Assembly (NCBI GenBank): GCA_016780775.1
Contig: JADHLI010000002.1
Location: 1-64,000, forward strand
Source of the DNA: Alphaproteobacteria bacterium
GTDB lineage: Bacteria; Pseudomonadota; Alphaproteobacteria; Puniceispirillales; Puniceispirillaceae
Reading direction: 5' to 3'
Length of the DNA: 64,000 nucleotides
Position numbers and translations under genes: made by a program. Under the pieces are notes generated by a model that saw nothing but the letters and a program-made list of their open reading frames with translations, did no database searches and was not told where the DNA came from. Of the stretch, positions 4,870 through 52,750 are shown piece by piece (the first letter of the stretch is position 1; each line of letters begins with the position of its first letter).

Positions 4870-6366
4870 ATGATCAGACAAAAAAATATTAAAGTAGCTT
4901 TTATGGCTACCAGCCTATCGCTCTTCACAGCTTATTCAGCAAACGCGCTAGAGATGAAAGAGATAGGTAATTTCAAAATTGGAGACGGTGAGGGTTATGC
5001 AGAGATGCTGCGTTATCATGCGCCATCCAAGAGCCTAATGGTAACAGCATCTGAAACAGGTACGATCGAAAGACTATCAATCAAGGACGCTGCTAACATC
5101 ACCAAAATGGAAGCCTTAGATTTATCTGGCGGCGACGTTACGGCAGTTGCAGTCCATGGGGCTATGGTCGCTGCGTCCATTAAAGCAGATGCAGCAGATG
5201 CAGCAGGTATGGTGAAACTGTTTGATGTTAACGCAGGCGAAATAGCCACTTACACAACAGGAGCCCTTCCCGACAACCTAGCCTTTTCTCCAGATGGTCG
5301 CTATCTGTTGACCGCAAATGAAGGCGAGCCATCAGACGATTACAGCGTAGATCCCGAGGGGAGCTTCACGCTAATCGATTTAAAATCTAGCCCTAAAAAT
5401 GCAACGGTCACACAATTGAGTTTAAATGGCTTTAACACCCCTCGTGGCGGCAGAACAGTTAAGCCCGGCGCCAACTTTGCAGCTGATGCAGAGCCTGAAT
5501 ATGTTGCTTTTGATGCAAGCGGGAAAACAGCCTATGTGACTTTGCAGGAAAACAACTCTGTAGCTGTCATTGATATTGAAAAGGCTGAAGTTGCAGGCAT
5601 TGTTGGCCTTGGTGTTAAAAATGTCTCACGCACAAGCCATGATATGTCAAATAAAGACAACGCCATTAATATGAAACGCTGGCCTGTCCTGATGATGTAT
5701 CAACCTGACGCGATCGCCACATATGAAGTCAATGGGGCAACCTATTTGGTTACCGCTAATGAAGGGGATGCGAAAGATTATGATGGGTTTTCAGAGGAAA
5801 CGCGTGTTGCAAAACTCACCCTCGATAAAACGATGTTTCCAAATGCGGACATGCTTCAAAAGCCAGAGAATCTTGGCCGTCTGAAAACCACCACTACCAT
5901 GGGCGATACCGATGGTGATGGGGATCATGATATGATTTACGCCTATGGCGGCCGGTCATTTTCAATCTGGGGTGCAGACGGAACTTTGGTTTTTGATAGC
6001 GGCAATGCTTTTGAAAATATTATCGCAAGCCGCTCACCTGAAGTCTTTAATGCAAATGGTGGCAGCTCCGAATTTGACGACCGTTCTGATGATAAAGGTC
6101 CTGAACCTGAAGCCCTAGCGTTAGGGAAGATGGATGGCAGAACATATGCCTTCATCGGCATGGAACGAAATAATGCTATTTTTGCTTATGACATCACACT
6201 ACCTTCCGACCCGCATATAGTTGGATATATGATGCCTAGTGAGGCGCATAATTCACCGGAGGGGCTAGAATTTATTGCGGCAAAAGACAGCCCAACTGGA
6301 AAGCCTTTATTAGCTGTTGCCTATGAAATGACAGGCACAGTTGCTTTGTATGAAGTACATAAATAA
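4870..6366 (+). CDS. Secreted choice-of-anchor I beta-propeller protein (phosphatase/phytase-like annotation)
   Basis: The 498-residue product has a signal peptide (residues 1-26, ending SANA) and then a seven-bladed-propeller style repeat pattern. Recognisable family stretches are FSPDGRYLLTANEGEPSDDY (around residue 140), DAEPEYVAFDASGKTAYVTL, YLVTANEGDAKDYDGF, an acidic loop DTDGDGDHD likely to bind calcium, YGGRSFSIW, and KGPEPEALALG. These match the choice-of-anchor I family, often annotated as alkaline-phosphatase-like or phytase-esterase-like; enzymatic activity is not established from sequence. GGAGAA lies 5 bp before ATG. The neighbouring lipid-remodelling and arsenate genes fit a phosphate-stress role, which is inference. 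Confidence 0.8.
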   Translation: MIRQKNIKVAFMATSLSLFTAYSANALEMKEIGNFKIGDGEGYAEMLRYHAPSKSLMVTASETGTIERLSIKDAANITKMEALDLSGGDVTAVAVHGAMVAASIKADAADAAGMVKLFDVNAGEIATYTTGALPDNLAFSPDGRYLLTANEGEPSDDYSVDPEGSFTLIDLKSSPKNATVTQLSLNGFNTPRGGRTVKPGANFAADAEPEYVAFDASGKTAYVTLQENNSVAVIDIEKAEVAGIVGLGVKNVSRTSHDMSNKDNAINMKRWPVLMMYQPDAIATYEVNGATYLVTANEGDAKDYDGFSEETRVAKLTLDKTMFPNADMLQKPENLGRLKTTTTMGDTDGDGDHDMIYAYGGRSFSIWGADGTLVFDSGNAFENIIASRSPEVFNANGGSSEFDDRSDDKGPEPEALALGKMDGRTYAFIGMERNNAIFAYDITLPSDPHIVGYMMPSEAHNSPEGLEFIAAKDSPTGKPLLAVAYEMTGTVALYEVHK

Positions 6367-6576: not shown

Positions 6577-6594
6577 TTGTTATAAAAACGTCAT
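6577..6594 (+). promoter_or_regulatory. Candidate Pho box upstream of the plcP-like gene
   Basis: TTGTTAT-AAAA-ACGTCAT places two heptamers 11 bp apart, 53 bp before the start codon. Each matches the PhoB half-site CTGTCAT at 5 of 7 positions. The spacing and location are right but the match is moderate. Confidence 0.35.
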
Positions 6595-6646: not shown

Positions 6647-7531
6647 ATGGACGAGAATCAAGCGCCTTTTGCCGCTCAAAAGAATGATGACCCAGCCCGC
6701 GTTGAAGACAGAAAAACAAAGCGTTCATCATATAAATATCGCACAATTTTTATTTCAGACACACATTTAGGGAGTGCCGGCGCACAACACCGAGCATTGC
6801 TGGATTTTATAAAATATAATGAGTGCGATAAACTATATCTTGTTGGCGATATTGTGGATGGCTGGCAATTGAAACGAAAATGGTTTTGGCCGCAACCTCA
6901 TAATGATGTGATCCAAAAACTGCTTCGAAAAGCACGAAATGGAACAGAGGTTATATATATTCCAGGAAATCATGATGAGTTCGCACGCCAATTCCTCGGG
7001 CTTTCTTTCGGCGGTGTATTGATCAGCAATTCAGATATTCATGAGACGGCAAATGGAACAAGGTTTTGGGTCGTGCATGGAGATTTTTTTGACAATGTTA
7101 TCCAGCATGCACGGTGGCTAGCTTATGTTGGTGATTTTGCCTACACAAAACTTTTGACACTTAACAGGTGGTTAAATCTAATTCGGCGTAGATTTAATCT
7201 GCCCTATTGGTCGTTTTCGCAATATTTAAAGCTGAAGGTAAAATCAGCTGTTTCTTTCATTTCTGCTTTTGAATCTGTGATGATAAGAGAGACAAAAAAG
7301 CACCAATGTGACGGGGTAATCTGCGGTCATATCCACAAAGCAGAGATTAAAATAATTGATGATATAATTTATGCGAATTCTGGCGACTGGGTCGAAAGTT
7401 CCAGCGCACTAGTTGAAAATTTTGATGGGCAACTGGAAGTCATATATTGGAACGAGGCAGGGTTGGTATCCAAACATAGCTTGGATGAGATGTCAGCAGA
7501 TGCCATGAGCTTGGCCCCGAGCGCGCTATGA
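6647..7531 (+). CDS. plcP: PlcP-like metallophosphoesterase (phospholipase C for lipid remodelling)
   Basis: The 294-residue product is a calcineurin-type phosphoesterase with all five metal-site motifs: SDTHLG (D38, H40), GDIVDG, GNHDE, HGDFFD and GHIH. General pipelines call this family UDP-2,3-diacylglucosamine diphosphatase. In marine alphaproteobacteria, members paired with a GT4 glycosyltransferase are PlcP, which cleaves phosphatidylcholine or phosphatidylethanolamine to diacylglycerol at the inner membrane under phosphate starvation. The overlap with the following glycosyltransferase gene (ATGA, 4 bp) supports that reading over lipid A synthesis, and no lpx gene is adjacent. LpxH-type activity cannot be excluded from sequence alone. 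Confidence 0.78.
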   Translation: MDENQAPFAAQKNDDPARVEDRKTKRSSYKYRTIFISDTHLGSAGAQHRALLDFIKYNECDKLYLVGDIVDGWQLKRKWFWPQPHNDVIQKLLRKARNGTEVIYIPGNHDEFARQFLGLSFGGVLISNSDIHETANGTRFWVVHGDFFDNVIQHARWLAYVGDFAYTKLLTLNRWLNLIRRRFNLPYWSFSQYLKLKVKSAVSFISAFESVMIRETKKHQCDGVICGHIHKAEIKIIDDIIYANSGDWVESSSALVENFDGQLEVIYWNEAGLVSKHSLDEMSADAMSLAPSAL

Positions 7532-8940
7532 TAGATGGTAAAAAACTTGTTCATTTGCTGATTGTAACAGATGCTTGGTTTCCGCAGGTCAATGGTGTGG
7601 TTCGCTCGCTAACCCATACCAGAGAGGAGCTCATCGCACGGGGCCACAAAGTGTCGATGCTGACACCTGAAGAATTCAAAACCTTCCCCTGCCCTACCTA
7701 TCCAGAAATCAGATTGTCCTTATTTCCGAGAAGCCGTGTTGCAAAAATTATTCGCCAACATAAACCTGATGTTATCCATATAGCCACGGAAGGGCCTTTG
7801 GGGATAGCAGCGCGCAATTTTTGCATCCGAAATAATATGCTCTTTACCTCGGCATATCATACGCGTTTTCCAGAATATATTTATTCAAGGATTAAATTAC
7901 CTTTGTTTATAAGTTATGCCTTTATAAGGTGGTTTCATAAACCCAGCGAAGCCGTCATGACACCAACATTACAGGTAATATCCGAGCTTAAAGATTGGCA
8001 AATATCTAACACTGCTTTGTGGCCACGGGGGGTAGATTTAACCCTATTCAGCCCACCCAAAAGACGAACACGTAACGCCAAACCTGTGCTGCTATATGTC
8101 GGAAGAGTAGCGGTAGAGAAAAATATTGAGGACTTTTTAAATATAAAAATTGACGCTGAAAAGTGGATTGTAGGGGATGGACCAGCTTTGACGTCTCTCA
8201 AATCTCGCTTCCCTGATGCTAAATTTTTCGGAATGAAAGCAAAAGAAGAATTACCTGAATTTTACGGCAAAGCAGACATATTTGTTTTTCCTTCCAAAAC
8301 AGACACCTTTGGACTTGTATTGCTTGAAGCAATGGCCTGCGGCCTGCCGGTTGCGGCCTATCCAGTGTCTGGACCTATTGACGTGGTTCGCAACTCAGAT
8401 GCTGGTATATTGGACGATAATCTAGAAATTGCAGTAAAAAAGGCATTAAGGATACCACGTAAGAATGCCAGAACTCACGCTGAAAAATTTTCTTGGACTA
8501 CAGCCACAGACATTTTCGAGAGTTATCTTGTATATCGGCAAGACAAAGATGAATATTCCTCTTTAAATAATCCCCACAAAAATAACTCGGGCATAACACG
8601 GGCATTCAAGGCTTTTGCAAATTCTTACACTGGTTTACGTTTCGCAATTAATGAAGAGAGCGCCTTTCGTCAGGAGTTGCTTTTGGTAGCTATTATGCTT
8701 CCCATCACATTTTGGCTTCCAGCGTCATCATCACAAAAATTATTAATGATAGGCTCATTACTGCTCATTTTGATAACTGAATTATTAAACTCAAGTATTG
8801 AAGCGGCTATAGACCGTATTTCTTTTGAGCAACACGGCCTGTCAAAAAGGGCAAAAGATTATGGAAGTGCGGCGGTATTTCTATCCTTAATATTTAGCGC
8901 CATTGTTTACATTACCGTAATTTATCAAATTATGTTTTAG
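7528..8940 (+). CDS. Diacylglycerol glycosyltransferase (Agt-like GT4) fused to a DgkA-type diacylglycerol kinase
   Basis: Residues 1-~345 form a GT4/GT-B glycosyltransferase: the N-terminal loop TDAWFPQVNGVVRS, the central KN(I)ED segment after LLYVGRVAVEKN, and the donor-site motif EAMACGLPVAAYPVSGP. Residues ~352-470 align along their length with E. coli DgkA: GITRAFKAF, NEESAFRQE, then three membrane segments with ELLNSSIEAAIDR and the catalytic-site RAKDYGSAAVFLSL. The gene overlaps plcP by 4 bp. The likely role is to turn PlcP-released diacylglycerol into glycolipid, while the kinase domain could convert surplus diacylglycerol to phosphatidic acid. Agt and PlcP pairing is known in phosphate-starved marine bacteria; the function of the fused kinase is inference. 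Confidence 0.82.
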   Translation: MIDGKKLVHLLIVTDAWFPQVNGVVRSLTHTREELIARGHKVSMLTPEEFKTFPCPTYPEIRLSLFPRSRVAKIIRQHKPDVIHIATEGPLGIAARNFCIRNNMLFTSAYHTRFPEYIYSRIKLPLFISYAFIRWFHKPSEAVMTPTLQVISELKDWQISNTALWPRGVDLTLFSPPKRRTRNAKPVLLYVGRVAVEKNIEDFLNIKIDAEKWIVGDGPALTSLKSRFPDAKFFGMKAKEELPEFYGKADIFVFPSKTDTFGLVLLEAMACGLPVAAYPVSGPIDVVRNSDAGILDDNLEIAVKKALRIPRKNARTHAEKFSWTTATDIFESYLVYRQDKDEYSSLNNPHKNNSGITRAFKAFANSYTGLRFAINEESAFRQELLLVAIMLPITFWLPASSSQKLLMIGSLLLILITELLNSSIEAAIDRISFEQHGLSKRAKDYGSAAVFLSLIFSAIVYITVIYQIMF

Positions 8941-9016: not shown

Positions 9017-9034
9017 ATGTAATCAAACTGTAAT
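9017..9034 (+). promoter_or_regulatory. Candidate Pho box upstream of arsC
   Basis: ATGTAAT-CAAA-CTGTAAT gives two nearly identical heptamers with the exact 11-bp spacing of a PhoB site, 45 bp upstream of the start codon. Each differs from CTGTCAT by one or two bases, and TGTAAT half-sites are tolerated in alphaproteobacterial Pho boxes. It is the best of the three candidates in this window. Confidence 0.5.
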
Positions 9035-9079: not shown

Positions 9080-9490
9080 ATGCAAAAAATTTTATTCCTG
9101 TGTACAGGTAACTCCTGTCGCTCACTGATGGCAGAGGCGCTAGCGAACCAGCTGGGCGACGGGCATCTGCACGCTGAAAGCGCTGGCAGTATTCCGGCTG
9201 GTTTTGCGCACCCAAAAGCGCTAACCACGCTTAAAAAGCATGGCGTGAAAGCTGGTGGCCTGTTTAGCAAATCTTGGGATGTTTTTGAAAAACAACGTTT
9301 TGACTATGTGATTACTGTTTGTGACTCAGCTGCTTCAGAGACCTGTCCTGTATTCGCTGGTGGCTTTAAAAAACTGCATTGGAGCTTGCCTGATCCAGCT
9401 GGTGTTACCGGCACTGAGACAGTGATCACCGCTGCCTTTGAAGATACTTTTGCCGCGTTAAAAAGTAGAATTGAAAGCGAATTATTATAG
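9080..9490 (+). CDS. arsC: Thioredoxin-dependent arsenate reductase
   Basis: The 136-residue product belongs to the low-molecular-weight tyrosine phosphatase fold. It has the P-loop C10-T-G-N-S-C-R-S and, downstream, the resolving pair in VCDSAASETCP, the cysteine triad of thioredoxin-coupled (pI258-type) arsenate reductases. It reduces arsenate to arsenite in the cytoplasm. No arsenite pump or ArsR gene lies next to it. The Pho-box-like site upstream makes sense because phosphate-starved cells import arsenate through phosphate transporters. A protein tyrosine phosphatase role is possible but the three cysteines argue for ArsC. Confidence 0.88.
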   Translation: MQKILFLCTGNSCRSLMAEALANQLGDGHLHAESAGSIPAGFAHPKALTTLKKHGVKAGGLFSKSWDVFEKQRFDYVITVCDSAASETCPVFAGGFKKLHWSLPDPAGVTGTETVITAAFEDTFAALKSRIESELL

Positions 9491-37528: not shown

Positions 37529-37867
37529 ATGCTTCGCGTTATTCTAATATTGTGTTTTGTCCTAGCGGTGAGCGGCAGTGCGCTCTATATGACAAAATTA
37601 TCGGTAGATGGGCGTTATGATCGCCTGAGCCAGCTGCAAACTGAAATCAAGGCAGCAGAGAACCGCGCCATTATTCTAGAAGCTGAATGGGCCTTTTTAA
37701 GCCGCCCAGATAGATTGCTCAATCTATCTTCATCGCTCTTATCTATGCGCCCGATAACCCAGAACCGGGTATTGCCCCTGGAATCTATTCCATTGCGCCA
37801 GCCAGCCAGCGCGCCAAGTGATAGCAAAGCAAGCGACACCAATGATAGGGGGGATAATGCGCAATAA
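37529..37867 (+). CDS. ftsL: Cell division protein FtsL
   Basis: The 112-residue product has one N-terminal membrane helix (VILILCFVLAVSGSALYMTKLS) followed by a short coiled-coil region (RLSQLQTEIKAAENRAIILEAEWAFLSRPDRLLNLSSSL) and a variable tail. This is the bitopic FtsL pattern. It forms the FtsQBL complex that activates FtsWI. Identification rests on position between rsmH and ftsI and the coil, since FtsL sequence is poorly conserved. Confidence 0.88.
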   Translation: MLRVILILCFVLAVSGSALYMTKLSVDGRYDRLSQLQTEIKAAENRAIILEAEWAFLSRPDRLLNLSSSLLSMRPITQNRVLPLESIPLRQPASAPSDSKASDTNDRGDNAQ

Positions 37868-39602
37868 CACCCCTTTTTCACCTGCAAATTCAAGTGTGAT
37901 ATCTGCGCTTTGGCGGCGTGTCTGGCCATCGCGCCCAGATCCAGACAAGTCGCGGCGCATAGCCAGAGCCCGCTTGCTTGTAGCGGGGGTGGTAGCGACC
38001 AGTTGTTTTATGGGCATCAGCGCCAAAGCCGTTTGGCTGGTCAGTGGCCAAGATGGCGCAAAATCTGGGCAGCTACAAACACAAGCTAGTGCAGCACGCG
38101 GCGCAATCTATGACCGCAAGGGTCGGCTTTTAGCAAGTACTATTCCTATTATGCGCCTGCACCTTGACCCGAAAATGGTGTTAAACCCCTTTGAGGTGGC
38201 AACTAAATTAGCCCCGCACCTGCCTGGCAAGTCTGAGCAAGATATTTTAAAAGCGCTGGCACGAAATAGCCGCTATGTCGAATTAGACAGAAAAATCACC
38301 CCAGCACGGCACGCCGCTATTATGGGGCTTGGCCTGCCGGGTGTAAATATTTCTGCCACCTCGCTTCGCAGCTATCCACATGGGTCAGAAGCCGCACATC
38401 TTATTGGTCAGGTAGACCGGGATGGTCAGGGTATTGCCGGTATAGAAAAGAGCATGCAAGCCAAGCTAGCCGCTGGCGAGAATGTCAATTTATCAATTGA
38501 TTTAGGCGTACAGGCAATTGTGCGCCAGTCTCTTCGCCACCAGATTGAGCGTTTCGAAGCTGTTGGCGGAGCTAGCCTTGTCATGGACATCAAAAATGGC
38601 GAGATTATCAGCCTTGTATCTTTGCCAGATTTTGACCCTAATCATTTCGCCCAAGCTAGCGATAATGCCAGATTCAACCGCGCCACTAAAGGCGTGTTTG
38701 AAATGGGCAGTATTTTCAAGGTGCTTAACACAGCTATTGCACTTGAAAGCGATGCTGCCTCGCTTGTCTCTTCTTATGATGTTTCCAAGCCCTTGCGTAT
38801 TTCTGGCTATTCCATAAGAGATTTTCACCCTCGCAAACGCGCATTAAACCTATCTGAGGTACTGGTCTACTCGTCCAATATTGGTTCAGCAAAAATTGCC
38901 GAAGCGATTGGGCCTGAGGTACAACACAGCTATATGGAAAAGCTTGGGCTCCTAAACCGCCCTGCCTTGGAATTACCAGAAACAGCACAACCCCTTATTC
39001 CGCGCAAATGGGGACGGCTCTCCACCATTACTATCTCATATGGCTATGGGCTATCTGTATCACCAGTGCATGCGGTAGGCGCCATAGCTGCGGCCGCTGG
39101 GAATGGTGAATTTATTGCCCCTACCCTGCTACTAAGAGAGCCCGATGAGGTGTTTGAGCGCACCCGCATCTTCTCATCCGAGACCAACCGTAAGGTGCGT
39201 ACTATGATGCGCCTTGTTGTCTCACATGAAGATGGAACAGCTAATTTTGCGGACGCCCCTGGCTATCTGGTTGGCGCCAAAACAGGCTCAGCTGAAAAGC
39301 TGAAAGTTGGCGCACGCGGCTATAATGAAAAGGCTAATTTAACCTCTATTGTGGCCGCCTTCCCTATTCATGACCCGCGCTATTTGATCTTTGTGATGGT
39401 GGATGAGCCAAAGCCGCAAAAATTTTCTTATGGATATGCCACTGCAGGTTGGGTGGCCGCCCCTGTAATCGCTGAAATTATAAAAAAAGCGGCGCCTGTG
39501 CTGGGGGTTCTTCCTGTTGACATAAAGGCGCCAGAAATCCGCCAAAATCTTGAGCCAAACCTGAATATTGGTGGCAAGGGAGCTATTTTTGCATCTTTCT
39601 GA
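37857..39602 (+). CDS. ftsI: Division transpeptidase PBP3
   Basis: The 581-residue product from ATG 37857 (behind AGGGGGGAT, overlapping ftsL by 11 bp) has a membrane anchor (LLVAGVVATSCFMGISAKAVWLV), the pedestal motif ARGAIYDRKGRLLASTIP, and the transpeptidase triad S-I-F-K (in EMGSIFKVLN), S-S-N (VYSSNIGSAK) and K-T-G (VGAKTGSAEK). It cross-links septal peptidoglycan with FtsW. Confidence 0.97.
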   Translation: MRNNTPFSPANSSVISALWRRVWPSRPDPDKSRRIARARLLVAGVVATSCFMGISAKAVWLVSGQDGAKSGQLQTQASAARGAIYDRKGRLLASTIPIMRLHLDPKMVLNPFEVATKLAPHLPGKSEQDILKALARNSRYVELDRKITPARHAAIMGLGLPGVNISATSLRSYPHGSEAAHLIGQVDRDGQGIAGIEKSMQAKLAAGENVNLSIDLGVQAIVRQSLRHQIERFEAVGGASLVMDIKNGEIISLVSLPDFDPNHFAQASDNARFNRATKGVFEMGSIFKVLNTAIALESDAASLVSSYDVSKPLRISGYSIRDFHPRKRALNLSEVLVYSSNIGSAKIAEAIGPEVQHSYMEKLGLLNRPALELPETAQPLIPRKWGRLSTITISYGYGLSVSPVHAVGAIAAAAGNGEFIAPTLLLREPDEVFERTRIFSSETNRKVRTMMRLVVSHEDGTANFADAPGYLVGAKTGSAEKLKVGARGYNEKANLTSIVAAFPIHDPRYLIFVMVDEPKPQKFSYGYATAGWVAAPVIAEIIKKAAPVLGVLPVDIKAPEIRQNLEPNLNIGGKGAIFASF

Positions 39603-41073
39603 ATTAATGACATATTTGCCTTCTGCACAGCTAATCTCTGGCCATCAAGAGCTGGAGATAAGCTCGGTTAGCGCCAATTCAGCTACCATCCAGATGGGCG
39701 GGTTATTTGCTGCCCTTAAGGGTGCAAAACAGGATGGCCATGATTTTATTGATGCTGCCATCAAAGCAGGAGCTGTCGCAATTTTAAGTGATCAGGCCAC
39801 GATTTCACTACCAACGGGGATTGCCCATATCAAATCTGATGATACGCGCCATGCTTATGCGCAAATTTGTGCGGCTATTTATGCTTCGCGGCCGGGCATG
39901 CTGGTTGGTGTTACTGGCACTAATGGCAAAACATCTGTCGTGGAATATATGCGCCAGATTTGGACACGTGCCACTTGGCCTGCCGCCACCATCGGCACGC
40001 TGGGCGTTGCCTGTCCAGTGCTTGAGCTAGCCAGCAGCTCTGCTATGTTAACTACGCCTGCACCTGAAAGCCTTTATGCCCTGCTGCACCAGATGGCCAA
40101 ATCAGGGATTACCCATACCGCCTTTGAAGCTTCTAGCCATGGGCTGGATCAGCAAAGGATGGCAGGGCTTGGCGTCAATGTGGCTGTCTTTACTAATCTT
40201 AGCCAAGATCATCTTGACTGGCACGGCGATATGGATAGCTATTTTGCAGCTAAAGCCAAGCTTTTTCATCAGAATCTGCTTGATGGTGGTACGGCGGTTC
40301 TAAACGCAGATGATGCGCAAGTAATGAAGCTAAAAGAGCAGCTAGAAAAGCGGCAGATTGTTATTTGGACGGTAGGTAGCAATCCTGAGGCTGATTTCTG
40401 TATCCAGAAGATCGAATCTCATCCCTTTGGGCTAGATGTACAAATCACTGCAAAAGGGCAGGCTTTCCGCTTTCCTGTTGCCTTATCTGGTACTTTTCAG
40501 GCGGTTAATGCAGTAATGGCAGCAGTGGCTGCTTATGCATCTGGCATGCCTTTGCAAGACTCGTTGGGTGCGCTGCCGTCTCTTACGCCCGTGCGCGGAC
40601 GCATGCAGCCTATCCATGAACACCCTGCTGGGGGGCGCATCATAATTGATTTTGCGCATACTCCTGACGCGCTAGAGGCTGCCCTTATTGCCTTGCGAGA
40701 CCAAACCCCTGACAAATTAAAGGTGATTTTTGGCTGCGGCGGTGACCGTGATAAGGGTAAGCGCCAAAAAATGGGCGCGATAGCGGCCAAGCTAGCAGAC
40801 CATATCATTATCACAGATGATAATCCGCGCAGTGAAGACCCCAGCGCTATTCGGGCTGAAATTTGCAAAGGCTGCCCAGATGCTAAAGAAATCTCGCCAC
40901 GTGATGCCGCAATAAAGGCTGCAATTGCTGGTCTAGATGGTGGCGATACCCTGCTGATAGCGGGTAAAGGGCATGAAACCTCACAGATGATCGGCACCGA
41001 AACCTTGCCGTTTGATGATGCCAGCGTAGCACGCCATGCAATAGCCCAACTAGGCACAAAGGAGGCAGGATGA
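39589..41073 (+). CDS. murE: UDP-MurNAc-L-Ala-D-Glu:meso-diaminopimelate ligase
   Basis: The start is chosen by the ribosome-binding site: AAGGGAG lies 6 bp before TTG 39589, giving MHLSELMTYLP; the later ATG 39607 has none. The product has the ATP site GVTGTNGKTSVVEYM, the Mur lysine region EASSHGLDQQRM, TNLSQDHLDWHG, and the mDAP-specificity motif TDDNPRSEDP. This last motif shows that the murein has meso-diaminopimelate. Overlaps ftsI by 14 bp and murF by 4 bp. Confidence 0.95.
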   Translation: MHLSELMTYLPSAQLISGHQELEISSVSANSATIQMGGLFAALKGAKQDGHDFIDAAIKAGAVAILSDQATISLPTGIAHIKSDDTRHAYAQICAAIYASRPGMLVGVTGTNGKTSVVEYMRQIWTRATWPAATIGTLGVACPVLELASSSAMLTTPAPESLYALLHQMAKSGITHTAFEASSHGLDQQRMAGLGVNVAVFTNLSQDHLDWHGDMDSYFAAKAKLFHQNLLDGGTAVLNADDAQVMKLKEQLEKRQIVIWTVGSNPEADFCIQKIESHPFGLDVQITAKGQAFRFPVALSGTFQAVNAVMAAVAAYASGMPLQDSLGALPSLTPVRGRMQPIHEHPAGGRIIIDFAHTPDALEAALIALRDQTPDKLKVIFGCGGDRDKGKRQKMGAIAAKLADHIIITDDNPRSEDPSAIRAEICKGCPDAKEISPRDAAIKAAIAGLDGGDTLLIAGKGHETSQMIGTETLPFDDASVARHAIAQLGTKEAG

Positions 41074-42548
41074 GCTTATCTGAACTGCATCCAACCAAAA
41101 TAGCAGAGATTTGCAACGGCTATTGGCTGAACGGGAACATTCCTCAATTTGCATTTCATAGCACGGTCATTGATAGCCGCCAGATGGCTGTCAACACCTT
41201 GTTTATTGCCCTGAAAGGCACGCATAATGATGGTCATGATTTCCTTGCAAGCCTTGCTGACCACCCAGAGCAGGGTGCAATGGTCAAGAACGCCAATCCA
41301 GAAATTAGGTTGCCCCAATTAGTTGTCCGCGATGTAGAGGCTGGCTTTCAAGCGCTGGCAAAATTTATCGCACATAATAGCCGTGCCCGAAAAATTGCTA
41401 TCACCGGGTCTGTTGGCAAAACAGGCACCAAAGATATGATAGCGGATATGCTGGCAGTTGCAGGGAATGTACATGCAACAAAGGGCAATCTTAATAATCA
41501 TTTAGGGGTACCCCTAACGCTGAACAGCATGCCAGAACATACAGATTTTCTAGTTGCTGAAATGGGGATGAATAGCGCAGGCGAAATCACCCTGCTGTCT
41601 GAAATTGTGCGCCCCGATTTAGCCATTATCACCCGCATTTCAAACGCACATGCTGGATTTTTCAATAATCTATCTGAAATCGCTGAGGCAAAGGCAGAAA
41701 TCTTCTTGGGCACAGACGCCTTTGGTACAGCTATTCTTCCACGCGATGATGAATTTTATGGTCAGCTTGCTGGCTCAGCGCGCTTATCAGGCCTGAAAAA
41801 CATTGTCAGTTTTGGCATAGATGAAGATAGCACTATCCGGCTTGAGGGCATGGAAGCGCATGAAAACGGTCTAGAAATTACAGCTAGCCTGCCACACCCT
41901 GAACAGCAAGGCAGGCGACAGATACTACAATTCATCCTTGGCATGCGTGCCAAACATTATGCGATGAACGCGCTATGTGCGCTTGCCGCCGCATATGCAT
42001 TAAAGCTGGAATTAGAGCCGCTTTTGCCTGCCTTTGCCCACATGCGTGAAGGGACAGGCCGCGGCCGGCTTCACCTGCTAAATTATGCAGGGCGCGAAAT
42101 AACCTTAATTGATGATAGCTATAATGCCAGCCCAGCTTCGATGCAGGCCGCTCTTGACGCCGCCGCTTCTTATAATGCTGACAATCTGCTGGTTATCGCT
42201 AGCGACATGCTGGAGCTTGGCGAGGCGGCAATCGCTGAGCATAAAGCGCTAGCAGCCGTTATCGAAAAGGCTGGGGCAAAATCAGTGATTGCTGTCGGGG
42301 CGTTAATGCAAAGCTGTTACCAGCAATTGCCAGAGACAATTTCCGCCACGCATTTTGCAGAGGCAGAGGCAGCTTGTGCCAGCTTTAATAACGATTTAGA
42401 GGCTCTGATAGGCGCAGCTGATCTTATCCTCATCAAAGGCTCACAGGGCTCTGGTGCACATAAAATTAGCGCCTATCTGCTGGACAGACTAAGCGGCAAA
42501 CATAACGGCCCTTCCACCCCGATGAGAGGTGTTTTCCATGCTGCCTGA
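41070..42548 (+). CDS. murF: UDP-MurNAc-tripeptide:D-Ala-D-Ala ligase
   Basis: The 492-residue product has [26 protein letters not shown] (N-terminal domain), the P-loop [16 protein letters not shown], the NHLGVPLTL segment, and [18 protein letters not shown] in the C-terminal domain. It adds the D-Ala-D-Ala dipeptide to complete the pentapeptide precursor in the cytoplasm. Starts at ATG overlapping the murE stop (ATGA). Confidence 0.97.
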
Positions 42549-43626
42549 TTTGCTTCTAGCCTTTTCTGATGAGTATAAAATTCTGAATTTATTCAGATAT
42601 ATCACCTTCCGTTCCGGCGGTGCCTTTATGACAGCTTTGATTGTGTCCCTGCTATGTGGAGAGCGCTTTATCGCTTGGCTAAAAGCCCATCAAGCAGAAG
42701 GTCAGCCTATTCGACAAGACGGGCCAGAAAGCCATATTCTAGCCAAGGCTGGCACGCCCACAATGGGCGGCTTGTTAATTTTATTCAGCTTTATTTTTGC
42801 AACCCTTTTATGGGTGCCCCTATCCAATGCCTATCTATGGCCAGTACTGCTGGTAGCCGCCTCTTTTGGAATGATCGGCGCAGCAGATGACTGGCTAAAG
42901 CTGAAAAAACGTTCAAGCGATGGGATGAGTGGCCGGCAAAAGCTGGTTCTGCAATTAGGGGCAGCATTGCTAGCTAGCTTGATTTTTATCCAGCTTTCAC
43001 CAGAAGAGTTGCGCTATGGTGTGGCCCTGCCCTTTTTCAAAGATTCCCTAATTTATCTGGGCTTGTTTTATGTACCCTTTGCCATGCTGGTCATTGTCGG
43101 CGCATCGAACGCCGTTAATTTAACCGATGGTTTAGATGGGCTAGCGATTGTACCTGTGATGATCGTGTGCGTGTGTTTTGGCATGATAGCCTATCTAAGT
43201 GGCAATATTAATTTCGCCAATTATTTACAAATTCATTATGTGCCTGGTACCGGCGATCTGGCGACCCTGCTTGGGGCTATTATTGGGGCTGGTCTTGGCT
43301 TTCTTTGGTTTAATGCGCCGCCTGCAAAGGTGTTTATGGGCGATACAGGCTCACTGGCACTAGGCGGAGCATTGGGGGCTGTTTCAGTAGCCACCCGCCA
43401 TGAGCTGGTTCTGGCTATTGCGGGCGGGCTGTTTGTGGTTGAAACCTTGTCTGTCATTTTGCAAGTGGCCTCTTTCAAGCTAACCGGAAAGCGAATTTTC
43501 CTGATGGCACCTTTGCATCATCATTTTGAAAAAAAAGGTTGGGCAGAAAGCACTATTGTTATCCGGTTCTGGATAATTTCTGTGGTTCTGGCACTTATCA
43601 GCCTGTCGACCCTGAAGCTGAGATAG
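42538..43626 (+). CDS. mraY: Phospho-MurNAc-pentapeptide transferase
   Basis: From ATG 42538 the product has 362 residues and ten predicted membrane helices. MraY signatures are seen: [34 protein letters not shown] (the DDxxK Mg site), [36 protein letters not shown] and [16 protein letters not shown]. It makes lipid I on undecaprenyl phosphate. GAGAGGTG lies upstream of the ATG, within the end of murF (11-bp overlap). Confidence 0.97.
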
Positions 43627-43637
43627 GATAACAGCAG

Positions 43638-45023
43638 ATGGCACAGACAAACACAAAAGCATTTAACCACATAGCCATTTTAGGGTTAGGCCGTTCTGGC
43701 CAAGCGGTGCTGGATGCGTGTATTTGTGATGGTATTACTGTCAGCCTATATGATGACCAACTTTTTAAAAATACTCCCACAGACAAGAGAGCAGAAACCT
43801 ATCTTGAACATTTTGATAATTGGGAAATGGATAAGCTGGACGCGCTTATTATCAGCCCCGGCATTCCCCATAATCACCCAAAGCCGCATCCAGCGGCAAA
43901 GGCGTGCGCCAAAGCTGGCATTCCTATTTTAAGTGAAGTGGAATTTGCCCTGAGGCGCGGCCGCGAAGGGCGCTGGGTATCCATAACAGGTACAAACGGC
44001 AAATCTACAACCACCGCTCTGGTCGGCCATATCCTAGAACAAGCAGGTATTGATTGTGCTATTGGCGGGAATATTGGTGCGGCTATCACAACATTACAGA
44101 ATGTTGGGGCAGACGGCGTGAATATCATTGAGCTATCTTCTTACCAACTAGAGATTACACCCTCTCTGCGCTCAGATATCGCGGTTATTATGAATATTAC
44201 GCCTGACCATCTAGACAGGCATGGCGGCATGCAAGGCTATATTGCTGCCAAAGAACAGGTGCTAACCTCGCTTACCCCTGAGGGGCTAGCCATTTTAGGT
44301 GATGGCGAAGCCCTAGATGATTTAAGCAAAAAATATGGCGAAAAATCTGATGGGCAGCTCCGCATCTCCCGCCTTGCAAAAAGTGCGGTTGCGGCTGAGG
44401 CACGCCATATTGCCGGTTTTAAAAACCTTGCTTTGAGGGGCCTGCATAATGCGCAAAACTGCCTCGCTGCCAGAGAAGTCTGCCGCGCCCTCGGCCTGTC
44501 TAACGCGCAGATAGATGCTGGGATTGAGAGCTTTTCTGGCTTACCGCATCGCCTGCAACCTGCCGGCCAGATAGATAATATTTTGTTTGTAAATGACAGT
44601 AAGGCCACCAATGGCGAAGCAGCAGCGTATGCGCTGGCTAGTTTTGAGAATATCCATTGGTGTGCTGGCGGCATTGCCAAAGAAGACGGTCTTGATGCGT
44701 GTATGCCGCATTTGGGGCATGTTGTTCAATCCTATCTATTTGGTGCTTGTGCTCATGCTTTTGCCAATAGCCTGCAGGGAAAGGTGCCAGTTAGCTGTTT
44801 TGAAACACTGGAAGAAGCCATAGAGGCGGCAAGCGCATCTGCACAAAATAGCCCACCTTCCCGCCAACAGGTTATCTTGCTCTCGCCGGCAGCAGCCTCT
44901 TTTGATCAGTTCTCAAGCTTTGAAGCACGGGGCCAGCATTTTTGCGTCCTTGCTGCTGCAGAAGTCGCAAAACGCACATCAAACCCTTCCTCACCAGACA
45001 GCATTGGGGGGCGCCATGTTTAA
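43638..45023 (+). CDS. murD: UDP-MurNAc-L-Ala:D-Glu ligase
   Basis: The 461-residue product has the N-terminal ILGLGRSGQAVLDACI, the ATP site SITGTNGKSTTTALVGHIL, ELSSYQLEITPSLRSDI, MNITPDHLDRHGGM and the C-terminal FVNDSKATNGEAAAYAL and WCAGGIAKEDGLD. It adds D-glutamate to UDP-MurNAc-L-Ala. It starts 11 bp after mraY and overlaps ftsW by 8 bp. Confidence 0.97.
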   Translation: MAQTNTKAFNHIAILGLGRSGQAVLDACICDGITVSLYDDQLFKNTPTDKRAETYLEHFDNWEMDKLDALIISPGIPHNHPKPHPAAKACAKAGIPILSEVEFALRRGREGRWVSITGTNGKSTTTALVGHILEQAGIDCAIGGNIGAAITTLQNVGADGVNIIELSSYQLEITPSLRSDIAVIMNITPDHLDRHGGMQGYIAAKEQVLTSLTPEGLAILGDGEALDDLSKKYGEKSDGQLRISRLAKSAVAAEARHIAGFKNLALRGLHNAQNCLAAREVCRALGLSNAQIDAGIESFSGLPHRLQPAGQIDNILFVNDSKATNGEAAAYALASFENIHWCAGGIAKEDGLDACMPHLGHVVQSYLFGACAHAFANSLQGKVPVSCFETLEEAIEAASASAQNSPPSRQQVILLSPAAASFDQFSSFEARGQHFCVLAAAEVAKRTSNPSSPDSIGGRHV

Positions 45024-46164
45024 TCGTACAGACAGATCACGCCTTGGCATATGGTGGTGGACCGTAGACAGAATGATGCTGACCTGCACGTTGTTATTAA
45101 TGGTGCTAGGGGCAGTGCTCGTAATGGCGGCCAGCCCACCAGTAGCAGAACGTATTGGCCTTGCTGAACATCACTTTGTTTCTCGCCAGATATTTTTTAT
45201 GCTGCCAGCTTTGTTTGTAATGCTGGTTACCTCTATTCTAAGTGGGCGCACTATCCGTATTTTATGTCTGCTTGGCGGCATGGTTATTACTGGCCTGATG
45301 CTGGCTACGCTTGCTATTGGGCCGGAGGTAAAAGGGGCAACTAGATGGCTGATGCTAGGCGGTTTGCGCCTGCAACCTTCTGAATTTATAAAGCCGATAT
45401 TGGTGATTATCTCCGCCTGGCTATTGGGGCTATGGCGTGAGCAGGAAGGCTTTCCGGGCTGGGCATGGGCATCAGTTGTAGTTGGCATTATTGTTGCCAT
45501 CCTAATCTTGCAACCAGATGTCGGCATGACTGCGGTAGTGGTGTTAACTTTTGGCTTCCAGATGTTCTTAGCTGGCCTGCCTTTATTGCTAATTGGGGTT
45601 GCGCTCGCTCTTGCTCCGCTAGCGGTTATCATGGCCTATAGCTTTTTGGATCATATGCGCTTGCGCGTTGATAAGTTTTTTACCGGGGGCAATCTGCAAA
45701 CTGAACGCTCTATCCAGTCCTTTGTTGAAGGTGGATGGTATGGGGTAGGCCCTGGTGATGGCCGCGTAAAGCTGCACCTGCCAGATGCACATGCCGATTT
45801 TATTTTCTCAGTGGCGGCTGAAGAATATGGGCTTATCGCGTGTTTATTCCTGATAGGGCTGTTTGGGTTTATTGTTATCCGCGGCTATGCCCAGTCTCTT
45901 ATTGCCAAAGATATGTTCTCAATGTTGGCTGTATCTGGCCTTGCCACACAGTTTGGCGTGCAGGCGGCTATCCATATGGCCTCATCTCTAAACCTTATCC
46001 CAACCAAAGGAATGACCCTGCCCTTTATTAGCTATGGCGGCTCTTCGCTCGTTGCAAGCGGTCTGACATTGGGGCTTATTCTTGCCCTCAGCCGCAAAGA
46101 ACACCCTTCTGAGCAAGGGAACATTGCCCGCCATGAACAGATGATGCCGGAGGCCAGCCGATGA
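45016..46164 (+). CDS. ftsW: Division glycosyltransferase FtsW
   Basis: The start at ATG 45016 gives MFNRTDRSRLGIWWW; a longer upstream frame belongs to murD. The 382-residue SEDS protein has about ten membrane helices, the periplasmic loop GATRWLMLGGLRLQPSEFIKP with the catalytic-Asp region LILQPDVGMTA, and YGVGPGDGRVKLHLPDAHADFIFSVAAEE-YG. It polymerises septal glycan strands from lipid II with FtsI. Overlaps murG by 4 bp. Confidence 0.96.
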   Translation: MFNRTDRSRLGIWWWTVDRMMLTCTLLLMVLGAVLVMAASPPVAERIGLAEHHFVSRQIFFMLPALFVMLVTSILSGRTIRILCLLGGMVITGLMLATLAIGPEVKGATRWLMLGGLRLQPSEFIKPILVIISAWLLGLWREQEGFPGWAWASVVVGIIVAILILQPDVGMTAVVVLTFGFQMFLAGLPLLLIGVALALAPLAVIMAYSFLDHMRLRVDKFFTGGNLQTERSIQSFVEGGWYGVGPGDGRVKLHLPDAHADFIFSVAAEEYGLIACLFLIGLFGFIVIRGYAQSLIAKDMFSMLAVSGLATQFGVQAAIHMASSLNLIPTKGMTLPFISYGGSSLVASGLTLGLILALSRKEHPSEQGNIARHEQMMPEASR

Positions 46165-47273
46165 GCCTCAGCACTAAAAAACCACAATATATCTGTCTAG
46201 CAGCCGGTGGTACAGGTGGACATGTGATGCCAGCTATCTGTATAGCTGAACGTCTGCTAGCAGATGGCCACCAGATATTATTACTGACAGATAAGCGCGG
46301 CGCAAAGCTTATTCCAGCCCATCTACCTTACAAGAGGCTAGCTTCTGCCTCACCCTTTGCTGGCTCTGTAGTGCGCAGGATTGGCGCGATGATACAGCTA
46401 GCTGGCGGCCTGATGAGCTGTCTTATAACACTGGCTGGAAGGCGCCCTGCGGTGATCCTTGGTTTTGGTGGTTATCCGGCAGCTGCGCCAATTTTTGCCG
46501 CATGGTGTTTGAATATACCCGCAGTTATGCATGAGCAAAATGCGGTCATTGGCCGGACAAATCTGATGCTGGCACGCTTTACCAAAGCGCTATTGACGAG
46601 CTGGCCTGAAAATAAAGAAAGTCTGGGGCAAACCCCTGTTCTGTGTACAGGCTTGCCAGTGCGTGAGCGCTTTACCGCGATTAAACCCTACAAGCCTAGG
46701 ACAGCTGCCTCCCCCTTTCAGCTAGCAATATTTGGCGGCTCATTAGGTGCAGCATTATTCGCAGAAATCATTCCTGCCGCCCTTGCACAACTTCCCGCCA
46801 GTTTACGTCGCCGCCTGAAAGTTACCCAGCAGGTAAGAGAAGAGCAGAAAGAGAAGTTAGACGCATACTACCAAGCCCATGAAATCAACGCTGAAACACG
46901 TATTTTCTTTGATGATGTAGACGCTGTGATGGCGCATTCCGACCTTATAATCAGCCGCGCTGGCGCATCGTCAGTAGCAGAGATCGCCTGTGCCGGCAGA
47001 CCTGCCATTTTCATCCCCTTTGCAAAGGCTATGGACAATCACCAAGAGGCTAATGCCCAAGAGCTTTGTGCCCATAAAGGGGGGCTATTGCTGCAGGAAG
47101 CAGATTTGAAGGCCAGCAAATTGTCACAACACATAGCAGAGCTAATAGAAAATAAAAGCTTGCGGCTGGAGATGGCACAAAATGCACGCTGCCGTGCAAA
47201 AAAAGATGCCGCGACTATGATTACCGACCACATCCTTTCTTATGGCGATGCCCAGAACAAGGAGGCCGCATGA
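46161..47273 (+). CDS. murG: UDP-GlcNAc:undecaprenyl-PP-MurNAc-pentapeptide GlcNAc transferase
   Basis: The 370-residue product has the glycine-rich AAGGTGGHVMPAICIAERL, GFGGYPAAAPIFAAW, HEQNAVIGRTNLMLARF and the UDP-GlcNAc site SRAGASSVAEIACAGRPAIFIPFAKAMDNHQEAN. It makes lipid II at the inner face of the membrane. Overlaps murC by 4 bp (ATGA). Confidence 0.97.
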   Translation: MSLSTKKPQYICLAAGGTGGHVMPAICIAERLLADGHQILLLTDKRGAKLIPAHLPYKRLASASPFAGSVVRRIGAMIQLAGGLMSCLITLAGRRPAVILGFGGYPAAAPIFAAWCLNIPAVMHEQNAVIGRTNLMLARFTKALLTSWPENKESLGQTPVLCTGLPVRERFTAIKPYKPRTAASPFQLAIFGGSLGAALFAEIIPAALAQLPASLRRRLKVTQQVREEQKEKLDAYYQAHEINAETRIFFDDVDAVMAHSDLIISRAGASSVAEIACAGRPAIFIPFAKAMDNHQEANAQELCAHKGGLLLQEADLKASKLSQHIAELIENKSLRLEMAQNARCRAKKDAATMITDHILSYGDAQNKEAA

Positions 47274-48709
47274 CTGCCCTTCCCCTTTCCATTGGCAGAA
47301 TTCATTTTACCGGTATCGGCGGTATCGGGATGAGTGGTATTGCCGAAATTCTGCATGAGCTTGGCTATCAGGTGCAAGGGAGTGATATTGCTGAAGGTGC
47401 AAATGTTCGCCGCCTGCGTGAACGGGGAATTGAGGTATCTATCCCGCAGAAAGCCGAAAATCTGGAAGGGGTATCTATTGTTGTTATTTCCACCGCGATC
47501 AAGCCAGACAACCCCGAGCTTGTAGCGGCGCGGACACGTTTCTTGCCTGTTGTACATCGTGCTGAAATGCTAGGCGAATTGATGCGCTTGCGCTGGTCAG
47601 TTGCGGTAGCTGGTACGCATGGCAAAACCACAACCACCTCGCTTGTGGCCACTTTGCTAGACGCTGCTGGTATTGATCCCACCGTTGTTAATGGAGGCAT
47701 CATTTCAAGTTGGGGCAGTAATGCCCGGCTTGGAAGCGGCGACTGGATGGTGGTAGAGGCTGATGAAAGCGATGGGTCTTTCTCGCGCCTGAAACCTACA
47801 GTAGCGATCGTCACCAATATTGATGCTGAACATCTAGACCATCATGGCTCTTTTGAAAATCTAGAAACCGCGTTTGAAAATTTCATTACTTCTATTCCCT
47901 TTTATGGCTTTGCCGCTTTATGTATTGACCATCCATCGGTGCAAAAGCTGTTGCCAGCGGCTTCTGATAGACGTGTTATAACCTATGGGCTGTCAGCGAA
48001 TGCAGATGTGCGGGCGTTAAATCTGCGCCATAAGGCTGGCCAGATGATGTTTGATGTCCAGCTATCTGATAGGCTGGATATCGCTGTTGACAGACTAGAA
48101 GATGTGCAATTCCCAATGTTGGGTGAGCATAATGTGCAGAATTGTCTTGCCGCGATATCTATCTGTCTTGAAATGGCAATTGACCCTGATGTGATCTTGT
48201 CTGGCCTGCGCCAATTCAAGGGTGTTGGCAGGCGCTTTGATTTCAAGGGCGAGACAGATGGCATTACCATCATTGATGATTATGGCCACCATCCAGTGGA
48301 AATTCGTGCCGCTTTATCTGCCGGGCGTATGCGCGCTGAGCAGAATAAATTAATCGCTGTTGTGCAGCCGCACCGTTATACCCGTCTCCGCGATTTATTT
48401 TCAGATTTCTGTGCCTGTTTCAATGATGCTGACCATGTGATTGTCTCAGATGTTTATGCAGCAGGTGAGGCGCCTATTAAAGGGTTTGAGCGAGACGATC
48501 TGGTTGAGGGATTGCGCGCATGGGGACATCGTTCTGTGCATCCTATGCAAGACCCGGATAGTCTGGCTGCACAAATAAATGAATTAGCAACAAGCGGCGA
48601 TCTGGTCATGTGTTTAGGGGCTGGTACCGTTACCCAATGGGCATCTTCTTTGCCACAAGAGCTAGCTGGCCTGCGCAACACTTCTCCTAGCAAGGAGGAC
48701 AGGCAATGA
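47270..48709 (+). CDS. murC: UDP-MurNAc:L-Ala ligase
   Basis: The 479-residue product has IHFTGIGGIGMSGIAEILHELGY (UDP-binding), the P-loop AVAGTHGKTTTTSLVATLL, EADESDGSFSRLKPTVAIVTNI, HHGSFENLETAF and DDYGHHPVEIRAAL. It attaches the first amino acid (L-Ala) to UDP-MurNAc. It overlaps murB by 4 bp. Confidence 0.97.
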   Translation: MTALPLSIGRIHFTGIGGIGMSGIAEILHELGYQVQGSDIAEGANVRRLRERGIEVSIPQKAENLEGVSIVVISTAIKPDNPELVAARTRFLPVVHRAEMLGELMRLRWSVAVAGTHGKTTTTSLVATLLDAAGIDPTVVNGGIISSWGSNARLGSGDWMVVEADESDGSFSRLKPTVAIVTNIDAEHLDHHGSFENLETAFENFITSIPFYGFAALCIDHPSVQKLLPAASDRRVITYGLSANADVRALNLRHKAGQMMFDVQLSDRLDIAVDRLEDVQFPMLGEHNVQNCLAAISICLEMAIDPDVILSGLRQFKGVGRRFDFKGETDGITIIDDYGHHPVEIRAALSAGRMRAEQNKLIAVVQPHRYTRLRDLFSDFCACFNDADHVIVSDVYAAGEAPIKGFERDDLVEGLRAWGHRSVHPMQDPDSLAAQINELATSGDLVMCLGAGTVTQWASSLPQELAGLRNTSPSKEDRQ

Positions 48710-49626
48710 CAGTGCGCCTAGATAATAACATTAAAGGCTTGCGCGGCATCCTGATAAAGGCAGCACCCTTGGCAAAACTGACATGGCTGCGTGTTGGCGG
48801 GATTGCGGACTGGCTATTCACCCCAGCAGATGCAGATGACTTACAAAACTTCCTGCGCCAATGCCCGAATGACCTGCCTGTTATGCCGTTAGGTGCAGGG
48901 TCTAACACGCTGGTGCGTGATGGCGGCGTAGAGGGCGTGGTTATTCATCTTGCCAAGCATGTGAATGCTATTAGCCACAAAAAGGGTGAGCTGCGCGCAG
49001 AAGCAGGATGCAGTGATGCTGAAGTTGCACGATATGCCGCAAAGGCTGGGCTTTCAGGTCTAGAATTTATGGTCACGATACCTGGCACTATTGGCGGTGG
49101 TTTGGTGATGAATGCAGGCTGTTATGGCAAAGAGTTCAAAGATGTTTTGATACAGGCTGAGGGCTTTCAGCGCGATGGCACCCCCTTTAGCATCACACCA
49201 GCAGAATTTGAGATGCGCTACCGTAAAACTAGCCTGCCAGAAGGGTGGATTTTTACTGCCGCTAGCTTCCGTGTAGAAGATAGTGAGGGTGAGGATATCC
49301 GGAGCCGCATGAAAGAAATGATCGCTGCCAGAGCCGATAGCCAACCCGTAGGGGTACGCACTGGCGGCTCAACCTTTGCAAACCCTGATGGCACCAAAGC
49401 ATGGCAGGTAATAGATGCCGCAGGTTGCCGCGGCCTGCAGCGCGGCGATGCCAGCATTTCTGAAAAACATTGCAACTTCCTGATTAACAAAGGCAGCGCT
49501 TCTGCGGATGACCTAGAACAGTTGGGCGAGCAGGTGCGCGATGCAGTTGAGACGAGTAGCGGAATTCGTCTGCGCTGGGAAATTAAACGCATAGGCCGCA
49601 AGGGAGACACAGATGCCAGCATTTGA
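48706..49626 (+). CDS. murB: UDP-N-acetylenolpyruvoylglucosamine reductase
   Basis: The 306-residue flavoprotein has TWLRVGGIADWLFTP, the FAD-site PLGAGSNTLVRDGG, SGLEFMVTIPGTIGGGLVMNAG, RYRKTSLPEGWIFTAASF and GGSTFANPDGTKAWQVIDAAGCRG with the catalytic serine (GGSTF), plus ISEKHCNFLIN. It makes UDP-MurNAc. The tyrosine-loop of type I MurB is absent, so it is type II, as in other alphaproteobacteria. Overlaps ddl by 14 bp. Confidence 0.96.
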   Translation: MTVRLDNNIKGLRGILIKAAPLAKLTWLRVGGIADWLFTPADADDLQNFLRQCPNDLPVMPLGAGSNTLVRDGGVEGVVIHLAKHVNAISHKKGELRAEAGCSDAEVARYAAKAGLSGLEFMVTIPGTIGGGLVMNAGCYGKEFKDVLIQAEGFQRDGTPFSITPAEFEMRYRKTSLPEGWIFTAASFRVEDSEGEDIRSRMKEMIAARADSQPVGVRTGGSTFANPDGTKAWQVIDAAGCRGLQRGDASISEKHCNFLINKGSASADDLEQLGEQVRDAVETSSGIRLRWEIKRIGRKGDTDASI

Positions 49627-50521
49627 CCGAAAAGTAGCGGTATTGATGGGTGGCTGGACGTCTGAGGCGGCCGTTAGCCGTGTTTCAGCCAGCTTCTGTA
49701 GCAAAGCTGCCCGCCTTGCTGGCTGGGATGCGATTGAAGTGGAGCTAGACAGAGATATTATTGCCAAGCTTGAAGATATCAGGCCTGACCGTGTCTTTAA
49801 TGCATTGCATGGCCAAATTGGCGAGGATGGCTCGGTTCAAGGGATGTTGAATATCTTGAATATTCCCTACACCCATAGCGGTGTTCTAGCCTCAGCAACT
49901 GCGATGGATAAAATCAGCTCGCGCCTAATCTTTGCCTCTATTGGTATAGCAGTACCGCCGCTCCTCGCACTAGAACAAGATAGCCATGTCTATCCATCTG
50001 ACTACACAGGCGCACATGTAATTAAGCCTCGTAATGATGGCTCCAGCTTTGGGGTGGTGATTGTCAACGAAGGAAGCAGCGCTCCTGAACGCAGCCTGTG
50101 GCCTGCTGAAACCGATCTGATGGCAGAGATGTATATTCCAGGCAAAGAGCTGACCGTATCAGTACTGGATGGACGGGCGCTATGTGTAACCGAAATCAAA
50201 GTAGATGAGAATTTCTACGATTTTGATGCGAAATATAAGCCGGGCGGCTCGCACCATGTTCTGCCTGCTGAGATACCAGAACATATCACTAATCAGGCGT
50301 GTGAATGGGCGGAACGCGCCTTTCAGATTTTAGGATGCCGCGGGGTTGCGCGCGCAGATTACCGTTGGGATGAGGACGCAGATCAACTCTATATGCTGGA
50401 GGTGAATACCCAGCCCGGTATGACGGCAACATCCTTAACCCCAGAACAAGCAGCTTTTGTCGGCATTTCTGGTGAAGAGCTGGTTAATCATTTGCTGGAG
50501 ATTGCACAATGCGACGACTAG
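49613..50521 (+). CDS. ddl: D-alanine-D-alanine ligase
   Basis: The 302-residue ATP-grasp enzyme has KVAVLMGGWTSEAAVS with the catalytic Glu, ALHGQIGEDGSVQGMLNILNIPYTHSGVLASATAMDK, HVIKPRNDGSSFGVV and the Mg-site LEVNTQPGMTATSLTPEQA. The usual GG-WS-E-x-x-V-S start is kept. It supplies the dipeptide for MurF. It overlaps ftsQ by 13 bp. A distant paralogue lies at 2290-3357. Confidence 0.96.
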   Translation: MPAFDRKVAVLMGGWTSEAAVSRVSASFCSKAARLAGWDAIEVELDRDIIAKLEDIRPDRVFNALHGQIGEDGSVQGMLNILNIPYTHSGVLASATAMDKISSRLIFASIGIAVPPLLALEQDSHVYPSDYTGAHVIKPRNDGSSFGVVIVNEGSSAPERSLWPAETDLMAEMYIPGKELTVSVLDGRALCVTEIKVDENFYDFDAKYKPGGSHHVLPAEIPEHITNQACEWAERAFQILGCRGVARADYRWDEDADQLYMLEVNTQPGMTATSLTPEQAAFVGISGEELVNHLLEIAQCDD

Positions 50522-52592: not shown

Positions 52593-52750
52593 TGTTTTTA
52601 ATAGTTTAAAGTAATTTAGCATAAGGAGCCCATATGTTAACCCTCTTCATCTACCAACCTGCTGGGATGTGTTTTACGCAGCCAGCTCCTCTTCACGCTG
52701 CACGGGCTGACAGCGCGATTTCAACCTCCAAATAAAAAAGGGAGATTATC

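Follow-up and report, generated by a model that had tools for sequence, protein, structure and literature searches.

A diacylglycerol kinase domain fused to the Agt-like glycosyltransferase of a plcP operon in Puniceispirillales

Marine bacteria trade phospholipids for glycolipids when phosphate is low. In the PlcP-Agt pathway, known from Sinorhizobium, the Roseobacter clade, SAR11, Pseudomonas and Methylosinus, plcP stands directly before the gene for an Agt-like GT4 glycosyltransferase. In Pseudomonas putida BIRD-1, the diacylglycerol kinase DagK rises with PlcP on phosphate depletion in a PHO-dependent manner (PMC5082522). The PlcP-Agt papers that we found say little about how the lipid exchange is reversed or what becomes of surplus diacylglycerol. 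A second described system is the DgkA kinase of E. coli (PF01219), which acts as a trimer, has its N-terminus facing the cytosol and recycles diacylglycerol from the decoration of periplasmic glucan or lipopolysaccharide. Gram-positive homologues of DgkA use undecaprenol as substrate.

The window (the whole stretch of DNA that was analysed, 64,000 nucleotides of contig JADHLI010000002.1, assembly GCA_016780775.1) comes from an alphaproteobacterium of the order Puniceispirillales, which we take to be the SAR116 clade. The locus is laid out as follows:

6577..6594, + strand: weak Pho-box-like site TTGTTATAAAAACGTCAT (4 mismatches in 14; shuffle P ~0.23)
6647..7531, + strand: plcP-like gene for a calcineurin-family phosphoesterase, 294 aa (ORF; Pfam Metallophos PF00149, E=8e-13)
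7528..7531, + strand: ATGA overlap of the plcP stop with the agt-dgkA start (read from the sequence)
7528..8535, + strand: Agt-like GT4 glycosyltransferase domain, residues 1-336, GT-B fold (Pfam, AlphaFold2, Foldseek)
8536..8580, + strand: linker, residues 337-351, ending in NPHK, with low pLDDT (flexible)
8581..8937, + strand: DgkA domain, residues 352-470 (Pfam PF01219, phmmer, residue alignment, AlphaFold2)

The first-pass annotation had described a glycosyltransferase fused to DgkA behind plcP, and this description was borne out: the open reading frame runs exactly from 7528 to 8940 on the + strand (470 aa), the Pfam domains are found and a calcineurin-like phosphoesterase is encoded upstream. 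Translational coupling of plcP with agt-dgkA through the ATGA overlap is likely. The PlcP translation carries five metal-site motifs (SDTH, GDIVDGW, GNHDE, HGDFFD and GHIH), and by homology its putative activity is the cleavage of phospholipid headgroups to leave diacylglycerol. An LpxH identity for this protein was rejected: the cut-offs of the NCBIfam LpxH models are 134 and 190 bits, and it reaches 41-45. Among relatives, a plcP orthologue (61-70% identity) lies immediately 5' of every fused gene. Pho boxes with at most 3 mismatches were found 5' of plcP on the coding strand at 5 of 18 loci of the order, against 0.19 expected from shuffles.

Immediately upstream of plcP, positions 4870-6366 encode a secreted choice-of-anchor I (PF22494) beta-propeller protein. 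Right 3' of agt-dgkA lies a low-molecular-weight phosphotyrosine phosphatase-like gene (9080-9490), with a Pho-box-like site ATGTAATCAAACTGTAAT (9017-9034, 3 mismatches) ~46 bases 5' of its start; the region 3' of agt-dgkA is conserved in the genome G002 (L131). Farther along, 37818-54559 holds an ordinary cell-division/murein cluster (penicillin-binding protein, Mur ligases, MurG-like, MurB, FtsA and FtsZ).

Within the 470-aa protein, Pfam places Glyco_transf_4 at residues 21-172, Glycos_transf_1 at 178-295 and DAGK_prokar (PF01219) at residues 365-464 (E=2e-29). The last match covers model positions 2-101 of 102 and scores 101.9 bits, the cut-off being 22.3. The best relatives of the glycosyltransferase domain outside the order are Agt genes adjoining plcP: identity is about 44-61% to ~80 Agt-like loci of other bacteria, most of them beside plcP. 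The C-terminal ~120 residues align by phmmer to structures of E. coli DgkA without a gap (95 bits), and the motifs ELLNSSIEAAIDR and RAKDYGSAAVFL, which the first-pass annotation had quoted from its match to E. coli DgkA, are both there. The loss of catalytic residues that it had named as a refuting outcome is not seen: E377, E418, N421, E425, D429, K443 and D444 (E28, E69, N72, E76, D80, K94 and D95 of E. coli DgkA) are all present. The domain has an A14-to-F change that is found in free-standing DgkAs too. An AlphaFold2 monomer built from 18 sequences (pLDDT 78.6), the kind of model that had been proposed as a check, shows a GT-B fold followed by a flexible linker (340-367) and the helices of DgkA, one on the surface (355-376) and three in the membrane (378-396, 401-430 and 440-469). 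Foldseek neighbours of the glycosyltransferase part are GT4 enzymes, e.g., BshA, PimB' and PimA. Since the N-terminus of DgkA is cytosolic, the arrangement fits a glycosyltransferase domain that draws on cytosolic UDP-sugars.

We read the 470-aa protein as an enzyme of PlcP-dependent lipid remodelling that is bifunctional and embedded in the membrane, and whose fusion came about by loss of a stop codon; we give this reading a probability of about 0.7. Both activities are predicted from the families to which the domains belong: the glycosyltransferase domain would glycosylate diacylglycerol and the DgkA domain would phosphorylate it. By removing phospholipid headgroups, PlcP would create inner-leaflet diacylglycerol. 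As a putative Agt, the GT4 domain in the cytosol would transfer glucose or glucuronate to this diacylglycerol, with a UDP-sugar as donor, and yield a phosphorus-free glycolipid, and the DgkA domain, with its complete active site, would use ATP to convert surplus diacylglycerol to phosphatidate. The return of phosphatidate would serve phospholipid resynthesis once phosphate allows, or when glycosylation lags. Against this reading, phosphatidate synthesis in phosphate shortage partly cancels the saving, the Pho box of this genome is weak, and several plcP genomes of the order have no diacylglycerol kinase.

Because E. coli DgkA is trimeric, the fusion should put three glycosyltransferase domains round a kinase trimer at the cytosolic face, with the same local diacylglycerol open to both activities. 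The two domains may share a pool of diacylglycerol or compete for it, and the kinase may serve to relieve an excess of diacylglycerol or, once phosphate recovers, to lead it back to phospholipid. A shared pool is the cautious interpretation; to propose channelling or a switch would go past the evidence. In its full form (a trimeric GT-DgkA complex, unreported so far, that holds the sole diacylglycerol kinase of SAR116-type bacteria and partitions or channels PlcP-derived diacylglycerol as the supply of UDP-sugar and ATP dictates), we offer the idea tentatively and with more doubt than confidence. The earlier interpretation, in which one polypeptide may decide the fate of diacylglycerol, is plausible and better supported now, if unproven.

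The DgkA domain could instead serve chiefly to anchor Agt in the membrane and to scaffold its trimerisation, with a kinase activity that is incidental or lost. As a presumed peripheral GT-B enzyme, Agt would be kept on the membrane by a three-helix anchor; characterised Agt proteins elsewhere work without one (PMC8528852). On average, pairs of fused copies are 67% identical in the glycosyltransferase domain and 61% in DgkA. Within DgkA, the catalytic-face columns are the best conserved, at 79% identity on average versus 39% for the remainder; the freedom of the membrane-helix columns to vary is what an anchor would permit, while the invariance of every catalytic residue argues against it. In E. 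coli numbering, R9, S17, G20, E28, E34, E69, N72, E76, D80, H87, K94, D95 and G97 are unchanged in all full-length fused copies. The dN/dS is well under 1 in both domains and for DgkA lies at ~0.05-0.19 in the better-resolved pairs, L009/L017 and L018/L019 having been left out for their very few synonymous changes. These comparisons point to purifying selection on DgkA as an enzyme and not as a mere anchor. Moreover, DgkA of the same lineage is elsewhere a separate gene beside plcP-agt, where it is unable to anchor Agt. We thus regard the anchor as an unlikely explanation.

The textbook role of E. coli DgkA suggests another possibility, that the kinase has a housekeeping task, recycling the diacylglycerol that arises when periplasmic glucan or lipopolysaccharide is decorated, and is fused to Agt incidentally. 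The distribution of kinases makes this very unlikely. The host genome has one PF01219 match, no PF00781 kinase by profile search, and no MdoG/OpgG. In a sample of 61 relatives there is no free-standing DgkA. PF00781 is absent from every fusion-bearing genome of this sample and occurs in family f3 alone, one member of which (G044) has plcP and an unfused Agt. Families f1, f2 and f4 have no diacylglycerol kinase of either kind besides the fused domain, and their sampled genomes without the operon have none at all. To judge from sequence, then, the cell possesses no other recognisable diacylglycerol kinase. Among the 61 relatives, 20 have DgkA and plcP, 7 plcP alone and none DgkA alone, so that DgkA occurs in 20/27 genomes with plcP versus 0/34 without it (Fisher P=1.4e-10); this association is partly a product of the shared operon, and its informative part is the missing free DgkA. 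DgkA is lacking in 41 of the 61, nearly all of which lack PF00781 as well, and hence there is no sign of a housekeeping need.

The pathway can do without the kinase, since the plcP genomes of genus g8 and that of G017 combine an unfused Agt with the lack of any diacylglycerol kinase. All five g8 genomes (G014, G022, G027, G032 and G036) have Agt without DgkA and neither kinase family; plcP is distant from Agt in this genus and was not found in G027. An assembly gap was rejected as the explanation for G017, as its 10-N gap precedes the glycosyltransferase tail, which then reaches a stop; the absence of DgkA there looks real.

A further alternative is that the kinase has a substrate other than diacylglycerol (undecaprenol, a sphingoid base or ceramide, or a glycolipid), and so does not compete for it. 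It is established that the substrate varies across the family, and the sequence here cannot tell which it is. Against this stand the gapless alignment to E. coli DgkA and the operon partners, which are predicted to make and use diacylglycerol, and we consider a different substrate very unlikely.

How widespread the fusion is was surveyed in 136 genomes of the order, as had been proposed at the outset. Of 47 DgkA-bearing genomes, 46 from three families have the fused frame (464-503 aa), and in the separate sample of 61 relatives all 20 DgkA genes are fused, each right behind plcP. This recurrence means that the fusion is neither chance nor an assembly error. A frameshift (feared from the start), chimera or mis-assembly, made thinkable by the betaproteobacterial loci L051 and L052, where a single in-frame stop parts the neighbouring genes, is refuted by a joined frame common to 46 genomes, three of them single-contig (G013, G020 and G037).

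A few loci of the order depart from the common form. In G018, an in-frame TAA (L016, 2638-2640) lies within the DgkA domain of one fused gene and may reflect decay or sequencing error. The order's only unfused DgkA frame (L165, 2005-2499, in G706) encodes a free DgkA of the plcP-linked/fused DgkA sub-clade, with an outer-membrane porin-like gene and a glyceraldehyde-3-phosphate dehydrogenase-like gene as neighbours; it comes from a genome with 5% contamination and may be a contaminant. A 28-aa stub in G002 was rejected as a relic because contig L131 ends there, and this genome most likely carries the fusion.

Farther out, DgkA was found in 33 of 240 genomes of the class and is fused in just two, both of the window's family. 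For 211 DgkA-bearing genomes of a phylum sample, the four longest frames among the matches listed, a set whose weak end is missing and that a rare fusion could escape, were two spurious ones and two from plcP-agt-dgkA loci with separate genes. The former (G499 and G488) were rejected as other fusions because they have no second Pfam domain and are spurious high-GC frames, and the latter (G601 and G599) because plcP, agt and dgkA are separate, overlapping genes. These last two loci (L163 and L164) are Burkholderia-like and belong to genomes of 6.9 and 7.8 Mb from one family outside the window's class. A search of viral contigs for the fusion gave one match, to an Agt without DgkA. On a 7-kb contig of the viral collection (IMGVR_UViG_3300017914_002713) there is a plcP-agt pair (L160, 2268-4017), which is either virus-borne or mis-sorted bacterial DNA.

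Outside the order, 80 Agt loci were compared: 11 have a dgkA no farther than ~5 kb away, in four or more arrangements, where chance would give ~1 such locus or fewer (a rough binomial at an assumed 0.5% per locus, the loci not being independent). It is 3' of plcP-agt in betaproteobacteria (L051, L052 and L057), and the alphaproteobacterium G201 (L132) has plcP-agt-dgkA as separate genes. Other layouts are dgkA upstream of agt in SKW220 (L059), dgkA divergent from plcP-agt in gammaproteobacterial symbionts (L094, L105, L111 and L114), and dgkA-plcP pairs with dgkA first in Litoricola-like bacteria (L095, L098 and L108). As judged by comparison, this clustering in other lineages ties DgkA of this type to the PlcP-Agt pathway, as does the place of the fused domain as the sole diacylglycerol kinase.

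In the DgkA tree, the fused domains and the plcP-linked DgkAs of betaproteobacteria and G201 form one clade (96/98) that stands apart from most other free DgkAs. In the glycosyltransferase tree, all fused genes group with G017, genus g8, G201 and PS1-clade Agts, and the betaproteobacterial genes, the same ones as in the DgkA clade, are the supported sister of this whole group (100/98). After the agt stop of L051, the same frame continues MNEKYSIEQNPHKGNKGI; the fused linker of the window reads DEYSSLNNPHKNNSGI, and its NPHK is the tail that is conserved at the N-terminus of free-standing DgkA proteins linked to plcP. The match of the linker to the N-terminus of separate DgkA means that DgkA was kept whole, tail included, and that the difference is the lost separating stop. 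Comparison thus supports an origin from a plcP-agt-dgkA operon in which the neighbours agt and dgkA would have lost the stop codon that parted them.

The conserved Agt-DgkA fusion and the repeated clustering of dgkA with plcP-agt suggest that diacylglycerol phosphorylation is part of the pathway. The fused protein can probably direct the common lipid intermediate to either fate, sugar or phosphate, and the fusion offers a single protein for testing the balance of glycolipid and phosphatidate. The open papers searched hold no description of an Agt-DgkA fusion, which may be listed in UniProt or InterPro with no paper behind it. The searched passages of the PlcP-Agt papers PMC4796936, PMC9239053 and PMC8528852 make no mention of it (PMC4796936 has none of the words "fused", "fusion" or "kinase"), nor do those of the SAR116 genome papers PMC8547437 and PMC12262181. 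Each part is known, and the Agt-DgkA combination appears undescribed.

Compared with the described systems, the locus has (i) the gene order of the PlcP-Agt pathway, to which it adds a C-terminal DgkA domain on Agt; (ii) the 100-residue domain of E. coli DgkA, with the surface helix, three membrane helices and all active-site residues, although here it sits behind a glycosyltransferase, is the sole kinase and is tied to plcP and not to periplasmic glucan; (iii) a diacylglycerol kinase in the company of PlcP, as under phosphate depletion in P. putida BIRD-1, where DagK is a separate protein and not part of the glycosyltransferase (PMC5082522); and (iv) the functions, order and DgkA sub-clade of the plcP-agt-dgkA clusters (L051, L052 and L057; L163 and L164; L132), in which the three are separate genes.
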